Origin: a virus
Reading direction: 5' to 3' (one strand)
DNA: 42,343 nucleotides
Virus record (IMG/VR): IMGVR_UViG_3300023223_000117
Coordinates: 1-42,343 of that record
The notes under the pieces were generated by a model. It did not search any database, was not told the DNA's origin, and worked only from the letters and a program-made list of their open reading frames with translations. The position numbers were made by a program, and so were the translations under genes. Of this stretch, positions 1,557-42,343 are shown in pieces (within the stretch, counting starts at the first letter, position 1; each line of letters opens with the position of its first letter).

Positions 1557-1650
1557 CTTAAGGGCGAAGCCCATTAACTAAACATTAGATGATATATCAG
1601 ATTAGATATATCTGATGCTGCTCGGAGCAGCTCTGAAGCCCTTAAGGGCT
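1557..1650 (-). ncRNA. Structured 5' leader of the leftward transcript
   Basis: Starting at the predicted +1 (1650), the minus-strand RNA contains in order: the palindrome AGCCCTTAAGGGCT (1650-1637), a hairpin GCTGCT-CCG-AGCAGC (1631-1617), a hairpin ATCAGA/TCTGAT with a nine-base loop (1616-1596), and a hairpin GGGC-TTC-GCCC (1572-1562). The segment CTTAAGGGC (1646-1638) can also pair over nine bases with GCCCTTAAG (1565-1557), closing a multibranch structure that excludes the first and last hairpins. None has a U-run, so these are not ordinary terminators. Possible roles are transcript stability, translational control or a switch; no known RNA family was recognised. Confidence 0.5.
1590..1613. 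promoter_or_regulatory. Tandem palindromes, operator-like
   Basis: Two 10-bp palindromes, TGATATATCA (1590-1599) and AGATATATCT (1604-1613), share the core GATATATC and have a 14-bp centre-to-centre spacing. They lie downstream of the strong leftward promoter and upstream of the secondary one. This could be a repressor or activator site, for example for the XRE-type protein at 30786, but they also form part of the leader RNA hairpins, so the signal may act in RNA instead. Confidence 0.35.
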
Positions 1651-1656
1651 AAAACC

Positions 1657-1686
1657 ATTATACCGGACCTCCAAAAAACGTGTCAA
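1657..1686 (-). promoter_or_regulatory. Perfect-consensus sigma70 promoter, leftward
   Basis: The minus strand has TTGACA (1686-1681), an 18-base spacer and TATAAT (1662-1657), both hexamers perfect. An AT-rich tract upstream of the -35 (TTTTATTTTAAATGA) looks like an UP element, and an A at 1650 is well placed as +1. It points to the leftward gene at 1458 and, if the genome is circular, to the whole replication arm. Such strong host promoters drive early genes in T7-like phages. Confidence 0.85.
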
Positions 1687-1711
1687 TCATTTAAAATAAA
1701 AGTGAAGGAGT

Positions 1712-2473: not shown

Positions 2474-3388
2474 ATGAGTAAGTTAGGTAGTAATTTTGTA
2501 TCGGAAGATACTGATGCCAGAGGTCAGACAGGAGCAACTGGTTCTACTGGACCCACCGGACCAACAGGTCCAACGGGACCAACAGGCCCGATAGGACCAG
2601 CAGGACCGAATACAACTAAAGGGGATATTGAAGGGTTTGATACTGTAGCAGCTCGTATTCCTATTGGGGCTGATACTTTTGTGCTGACAGCTGATTCAGC
2701 TGAAGCTCTTGGTCTTAAATGGGCTGCCCCAGCAGGAGGCGACCCTCTCACTACGAAAGGAGATTTATTCACTTTCGATACTGATGCACAAAGACTTGCG
2801 GTAGGTACTGATACGTTTGTATTGACCGCCGACAGTGCAGAGGCCACAGGGTTAAAATGGGCTGCTCCAGCAGCAGCAGGGGTTAGTCCTGTAATAATAT
2901 TCCATCCAACTGCTACTGCAATACATGGATTCGCATCCATTTCTGATGCTGCTCAAGGTATGGCTTTTAATTGTAAGGCTAATTTAACAATTCAGACACT
3001 TGTATTTTATACTGGAACAGATAATGCAGCCACCTACAATGCGATGATAGTAGAGGTGTCTGGAGCATCAGATACCATTGATGTAATATTAGTAACAACT
3101 TTTACTACAGCAGCACTGACTGTGACTGCTTCCAGAGCAAACAGTTTTACATTTAGTGCAGGGATACCTTTGGTGTCTGGAAAGTCGTATGCATTTTTAT
3201 TAGTCAGAAAAGACGGAACAGGTAGTGCTATAAATAGGTTAGGTTTTAATTCTCTAAATTATAGTGATACAAATTTAGAGTATCGGTCATTCTGCGTTCT
3301 TGAAAGTAATGACCCTATTGTCACTGATGTTCTTAGATTCGATACAACAAATGCAACTAATATGGATATTTCATATACATTGGATTAG
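2474..3388 (+). CDS. Collagen-like phage fibre/appendage protein
   Basis: A 304-aa protein with three parts. Residues 17-45 are ten Gly-x-y triplets (mostly GPT), which form collagen-like trimeric stalks in phage fibres. Residues 47-86 and 93-132 are two copies of a 46-residue-period repeat beginning TTKGD and ending GLKWAAP, a module common in phage fibres and head appendages. The C-terminal ~165 residues are beta-rich with many Thr/Val and probably form a trimeric tip or receptor-facing domain. It lies before the terminase genes, away from the other tail genes. A head or tail fibre are both possible. GGGGAACC upstream supplies a weak ribosome site. Confidence 0.8.
2522..2608 (+). repeat. 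Collagen-like Gly-x-y triplet repeat
   Basis: Ten consecutive codon triplets encode G-x-y units, with GPT repeated five times, at the DNA level seen as degenerate nine-base repeats of the type GGACCAACA. Such tracts can change length by slippage or recombination and so alter fibre length. Confidence 0.85.
2612..2869 (+). repeat. Two tandem copies of the TTKGD...GLKWAAP fibre module
   Basis: Copy one spans 2612-2731 and copy two 2750-2869, a period of 138 bases (46 codons). They share [17 protein letters not shown] and GLKWAAP but have diverged elsewhere, so duplication is not recent. Confidence 0.85.
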
Positions 3389-41081: not shown

Positions 41082-41240
41082 TTAATGTTGTTCAAGCCAG
41101 TTGGCTATCTGTTTAAGGGTGAAGTTTGTGACATCCACCCAGTTACAAGATGCATCCATATAATATAGCCGTCCGTTAGATATCTTTGTGTTGATACCAT
41201 GTTGAATGGCTATATCTTGGAGCAGTATCAGGTTATTCAT
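41082..41240 (-). CDS. Hypothetical protein, 52 aa
   Basis: Reads MNNLILLQDIAIQHGINTKI, then GRLYYMDASCNWVDVTNFTLKQIANWLEQH. Start at 41240 lies two bases after the upstream stop (coupled); a longer frame overlaps more and lacks a ribosome site. Possibly a small strand-helix domain; not recognised. Confidence 0.55.
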   Translation of the reverse strand: MNNLILLQDIAIQHGINTKISNGRLYYMDASCNWVDVTNFTLKQIANWLEQH

Positions 41241-41242
41241 CA

Positions 41243-41410
41243 CTATTCTAAAATGAAGCCGTGATGTACGGCGTGATGTGCGGCTTGGTATGTCCCATAT
41301 ACTAACTCGCCTAGCTCCCATCCCCTACCAATGACATGATACTTAAACCCACCGATAAATGAGCCAACTATCACAATGACATAGGGATATATATCACCTA
41401 CTGTTTTCAT
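41243..41410 (-). CDS. Small membrane protein, 55 aa
   Basis: One hydrophobic segment YPYVIVIVGSFIGGF (about residues 8-23), followed by a His-rich end QAAHHAVHHGF. Start at 41410 is set by AAGGAG ten bases upstream. The His cluster could bind metal, but no family is known to me. Confidence 0.55.
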   Translation of the reverse strand: MKTVGDIYPYVIVIVGSFIGGFKYHVIGRGWELGELVYGTYQAAHHAVHHGFILE

Positions 41411-42280: not shown

Positions 42281-42343
42281 CTATTCGTTATACACAAACA
42301 TAAAATCGTATGACTCATCATCATACACAGCATCACCATCCAC
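42281..42343 (-). CDS. C-terminal end of an unidentified gene, cut by the window edge
   Basis: Twenty codons are visible, an acidic sequence VDGDAVYDDESY ending FMFVYNE and a TAG stop. The frame is open to the edge, and the composition is like other acidic C-termini here. Nothing can be said of function. If the molecule is circular, the nine-codon start at the left edge might belong to this gene, but the two edges are not in the same frame. Confidence 0.45.
   Translation of the reverse strand: MDGDAVYDDESYDFMFVYNE

Follow-up and report, generated by a model that had tools for sequence, protein, structure and literature searches.

The window, a complete viral record of 42,343 bases, carried identifiable genes for terminase, a head-tail adaptor, DNA polymerase A, a DnaB-like helicase, primase, an exonuclease, and PhoH. 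The terminase was 53% identical to that of Vibrio phage 1.015.O and reached 77% identity with those of other viral contigs, and the two-arm divergent gene order matched that of Zobellviridae. No RNA polymerase was detected among the proteins scanned, which were a subset of the open reading frames (ORFs), and members of Zobellviridae have no RNA polymerase of their own (PMC9960094). As judged from these comparisons, the phage is Zobellviridae-like and uses the host polymerase. A 33-codon membrane-protein-like frame that crosses the junction of positions 42343 and 1 is coupled through TAATG to the gene at 29-1096; the record therefore most probably represents a circularly permuted genome. Given host polymerase use and circular permutation, a single leftward promoter would head an operon of ~17 kb, extending from 1650 to 1 and then from 42343 to 26668, with an intrinsic terminator-like hairpin at its far end (Table 1). 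The product of the first gene of this operon (1108-1458) had a weak restriction-nuclease-like match (Pfam HSDR_N_2, E = 0.023) that fell below the family's cut-off. A frame from ATG 1524 has no recognizable ribosome-binding site and overlaps hairpin H5, which makes ATG 1458 the likely start; AGAGAGGATACATA lies between H5 and this codon.

The initial annotation had described a perfect left-facing promoter, and the consensus match agreed at every position. This site stood alone in the window: the runner-up on either strand scored 10/12, no further promoter scoring at least 10/12 was found on the minus strand of the early arm, and 0.12 perfect promoters were expected per shuffled window. The palindrome AGCCCTTAAGGGCT occupies 1650-1637; its first base, 1650, is the seventh past the -10 box and hence the predicted +1, which accords with the earlier proposal that the transcript begins at a 14-base palindrome. 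Palindromes of 14 bp are singly not rare (2 in the window versus 2.8 expected); the features above chance are the entire fold and the coincidence of the palindrome with +1. From the predicted +1 to ATG 1458 the leader measures ~192 nt, in line with the long leader of ~190 bases first described.

Table 1. Coordinates of predicted features at the head and far end of the leftward operon
Feature	Position	RNA position	Strand	Remark
Sigma-70 promoter TTGACA-18-TATAAT	1686-1657		minus	consensus match 12/12
Predicted +1 (A)	1650		minus	7th base after -10 hexamer; read from sequence
H1, AGCCC-UUAA-GGGCU, 5'-terminal hairpin/palindrome	1650-1637	1-14	minus	-7.0 kcal/mol
H2, GCUGCU-CCG-AGCAGC	1633-1614	18-37	minus	-8.7 kcal/mol
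H3, GAUAUAUC-UAAUCU-GAUAUAUC	1612-1591	39-60	minus	-7.4 kcal/mol
H4, GUUUA-UUAA-GGGC-UUC-GCCC-UUAA-UAAAC	1583-1552	68-99	minus	-12.0 kcal/mol
Distal GCCCTTAAG	1565-1557	86-94	minus	sequence
H5, AU-rich nested hairpin	1539-1493	112-158	minus	-9.3 kcal/mol
First early-operon gene, 116 aa, start ATG 1458	1458-1108		minus	AGAGAGGA upstream
Intrinsic terminator-like hairpin with T6, far end of operon	26621-26602		minus	sequence

Folding of the leader recovered the two enclosed hairpins that had been reported (H2 and H3) and two more beyond them (H4 and H5). The first 101 nt of the RNA (1650-1550, minus strand) had a minimum free energy (MFE) of -38.6 kcal/mol, compared with a shuffle mean of -20.7 kcal/mol (z = -5.9), and the complementary plus strand had a z score of -4.1. 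Over 1531-1650, the minus strand again exceeded its complement in fold stability against shuffles (z = -5.1 versus -3.4), and over the full 192 nt both strands folded about alike (z = -4.9 versus -5.3). In a window-wide fold scan, in which 200 shuffles were used to retest the top-scoring windows, the leader (1531-1650, minus) ranked second among the retested windows and was the most structured noncoding stretch found. The first-ranked fold was antisense to 2474-3388, a tail-fiber protein gene with a collagen-like Gly-X-Y stretch, and its score is an artifact of the collagen-like repeats. A second strongly folded early-strand stretch, at 41090-41290 on the minus strand (z = -5.3), overlaps a short reading frame that appears noncoding in its N-terminal part. 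Other windows of the genome, coding ones included, reached z scores of -4 to -5, and the leader was absent from every relative examined, as would be expected of an AT-rich spacer that has no specific function and folds well by chance. Such a spacer is unlikely, as none of 300 shuffles of the first 101 nt folded as well and the palindrome coincides exactly with +1 of the one perfect promoter.

Each of the 34 pairs predicted for RNA positions 1 to 101 was Watson-Crick, with no G-U pairs (11% G-U expected from shuffles), a pattern that cannot by itself prove selection on the RNA rather than on the DNA. The dyads might therefore be read as a DNA-level element, whether an origin, a portion of the terminal-repeat or packaging region, or a set of operator half-sites (TTAAGGGC/GCCCTTAA), with the RNA fold as a by-product. 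Consistent with such an element, the plus strand has three copies of TTAAGGGC in 42 kb, two of which fall in the leader region; the relatives VpV262 and ICBM1 have their annotated terminal repeats in this same divergent region; and the hairpins (GC content, 0.41) are flanked by AT-rich DNA (0.23 and 0.26). We nevertheless consider a DNA-level element rather unlikely, because the dyads start precisely at +1 and all lie downstream of it, because over the first 101 nt the transcribed strand outperforms its complement in folding, and because the five dyads differ in sequence, so that no single reader protein would be expected.

The initial annotation had interpreted the leader as a switch in which CUUAAGGGC near the 5' end pairs either locally or with a distal copy. 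The second copy was found downstream of the 5' end as described (Table 1), where H4 includes it as GCCCUUAAG, and the nine complementary bases do flank two hairpins; mutually exclusive pairing, in the manner of a riboswitch, attenuator, or thermometer, did not withstand computation of alternative structures. Forced pairing of CUUAAGGGC (RNA positions 5 to 13) with GCCCUUAAG (RNA positions 86 to 94) gave -33.5 kcal/mol, 5.1 kcal/mol less stable than the free MFE structure, with an ensemble probability of 3e-4. Both partners already sit in hairpins, the long-range pairing would require two formed hairpins to open, and H1 is predicted to be complete long before the distal copy is transcribed. Inverted pairs of 9-mers 20 to 120 nt apart occurred in the window at chance frequency (21 observed versus 20.2 expected), and 1.4% of shuffled leaders contained such a pair. 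No terminator was found on the minus strand of the leader, and a search of the leader fold for sequestration of the ribosome site revealed none that was convincing, the site being weakly paired in the MFE structure and open in the centroid. An Rfam search of the leader gave no match (SCARNA7, at E = 1.2, was noise), in keeping with the original statement that no phage leader family was known to have this order of elements. The leader thus resembles riboswitch and attenuator leaders in being a long structured 5' untranslated region and differs from them in having no competing structures near in energy, no terminator, and no Rfam match. Energy, probability, and chance frequency all led to rejection of the switch, which, according to the modeled folding, is very improbable unless a ligand or protein adds more than about 5 kcal/mol.

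A homologous leader was sought in viral contigs with the flanking proteins and with exact matches to the promoter and to the palindrome, and none was found. Terminase searches recovered relatives among viral contigs, none with such a leader, and gave no match among genome contigs; one 98% identical contig (L012) is 5.2 kb long and starts inside the terminase. The pattern of the promoter followed by GCCC-N4-GGGC had six matches, among which no matching leader was seen. In a contig with 74% terminase identity (L007), the promoter TTGACA-17-TAAAAT (11/12) precedes a hairpin that starts at about +3 and two GTTTAAAA/TTTAAAAC hairpins, and this leader was not unusually stable (z = -0.7). In L008, L011, L057, and Vibrio phage 1.015.O, early promoters matching at 11/12 positions precede pyrimidine-rich, poorly folded leaders, which ruled out a structured leader as a family trait. 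A common CUUA/UUAA loop in the hairpins of relatives was also considered and was dropped as too weak. Across the sequences compared, the pairing of promoter and leader is unusual for Zobellviridae.

Other putative noncoding elements were observed in the relatives. Two noncoding blocks with 77 to 79% identity are conserved between L005 (minus strand, 2600-2220) and L007 (minus strand, 2470-2110); a strong terminator closes them, a tRNA gene (Rfam match) lies inside in L007, and the blocks possibly represent a phage noncoding RNA. In L008 (minus strand, about 3320-2480), L011 (minus strand, about 3610-2620), and L057, a strong promoter precedes a pyrimidine-rich RNA of ~220 nt, followed in L008 and L011 by a terminator-like CCCTC-N-GAGGGCTTT. 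A downstream noncoding block of ~300 nt is 74% conserved and contains GAGGCTCTTAGAGCCATTCTAAGC. The region resembles a small RNA gene and perhaps an origin.

Divergent regions were also scored on both strands for the rrn-type boxA core, G[CT]TCTTT[AG]A. Exact cores in the divergent regions of six GenBank relatives numbered eight on the early strand and none on the other strand, with 0.4 expected. The relatives with these cores were ICP2 (L014), Vibrio phage 1.070.O (L015), VpV262 (L025/L032), PP21 (L027), T5S1 (L028), and Pecta (L035/L030), and an extended form, YGYTCTTTAACAATNTG, was present at several of the sites. Among 45 metagenomic loci the signal was sparse, with one full match (L066), which would confine boxA to some lineages. 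These sequence matches suggest that part of Zobellviridae uses Nus-factor antitermination in the early operon; a brief literature search returned no report of boxA-type antitermination in the early operons of this family. The leader of the window shares its genomic position, the head of the early operon, with these rrn/lambda-type boxA elements. It differs from them in that the divergent region of the window has no boxA core (best match, 7/9) and has hairpins in its place.

The presence of boxA in the same region of several relatives suggests that elongation control is placed there in Zobellviridae, and the nascent hairpins might bind the host elongation complex and confer resistance to pausing and termination over the ~17-kb early operon. 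HK022 put RNA counteracts termination via the beta' zinc-binding domain and needs no phage protein. Its putL site lies directly downstream of an early promoter (PMC9378689). The leader has the same location, and the two have in common a structured RNA with successive stem-loops immediately after a sigma-70 early promoter in a phage that uses the host polymerase. A put-like role would also fit an operon that, from 1650 onward, has no second early-arm promoter at the threshold given above. The sequence determinants of putL are nonetheless absent: the HK022 site was located by 15 published putL positions (15/15 matching there), and the best match in the leader was 9/15. The leader reads GCUCCG at +23 to +28, where a -10-like NANNAT would be expected, and has four hairpins within its first 100 nt instead of a two-stem fold of about 70 nt; its four to five hairpins are mostly simple Watson-Crick stems. 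Few strong intrinsic terminators were found on the minus strand inside the operon. By this analysis a put-like function is the main rival, less likely than a protective leader and somewhat unlikely overall. Its most specific form, a protein-free antiterminator RNA unrelated to put in sequence that replaces the boxA of relatives at the head of the single 17-kb early operon of a lytic phage, is quite unlikely.

Read from the observed sequence, promoter match, predicted stable fold, and operon layout, the element is tentatively modeled as the 5' untranslated leader of the single long early operon of the phage, transcribed by host sigma-70 RNA polymerase. Its favored function is that of a structured 5' leader that would protect the transcript end, rather than a switch (probability, about 0.4). 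If transcription begins at 1650, the first transcribed nucleotide is already paired in H1, so pyrophosphohydrolase and RNase E, if the host has these enzymes, would be left without a single-stranded 5' end at which to enter. H1 to H4, predicted to form in order on the growing transcript, would fold successively on leaving the polymerase to give a compact, protected block at the 5' end; beyond it, an AU-rich stretch would keep the ribosome-binding site free. The chief consequence would be a long life of the early messenger, possibly with a put-like effect on polymerase processivity as well. Pairing of the 5' terminus is described as an established stabilizer (Bouvet and Belasco 1992; Emory et al. 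1992, both as cited in PMC3997798), and a transcript start within a hairpin, with the next 100 nt folded, is a known means of resisting 5'-end-dependent decay (literature listed in PMC3997798).

Protection of the transcript end is favored by the palindrome at RNA positions 1 to 14 of the sole strong promoter, by a fold that exceeded all shuffles, and by the advantage of the transcribed strand over its complement in the first 101 to 120 nt. The predicted sequential hairpins, with no terminator found and the ribosome site not stably occluded, are also consistent with it. Against it, no relative found keeps the leader, the start is a predicted one, the two strands are about equal at full length, and the all-Watson-Crick pairs may reflect DNA-level dyads. 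Moreover, one 5' hairpin would suffice, and five are present. As in the stabilizing stem-loops of ompA and papA, the predicted transcript begins in a hairpin with no free 5' nucleotides; unlike in those messengers, three or four more hairpins follow directly.

Few studies have addressed how host polymerase passes through the whole early arm of podophages that have no RNA polymerase of their own. A leader that protected the messenger or altered the polymerase would be a compact, directly testable cis-acting part. The enrichment of boxA in relatives leads to a concrete hypothesis for the family, namely, that early-operon processivity may be set in the divergent region by RNA elements that differ among lineages.
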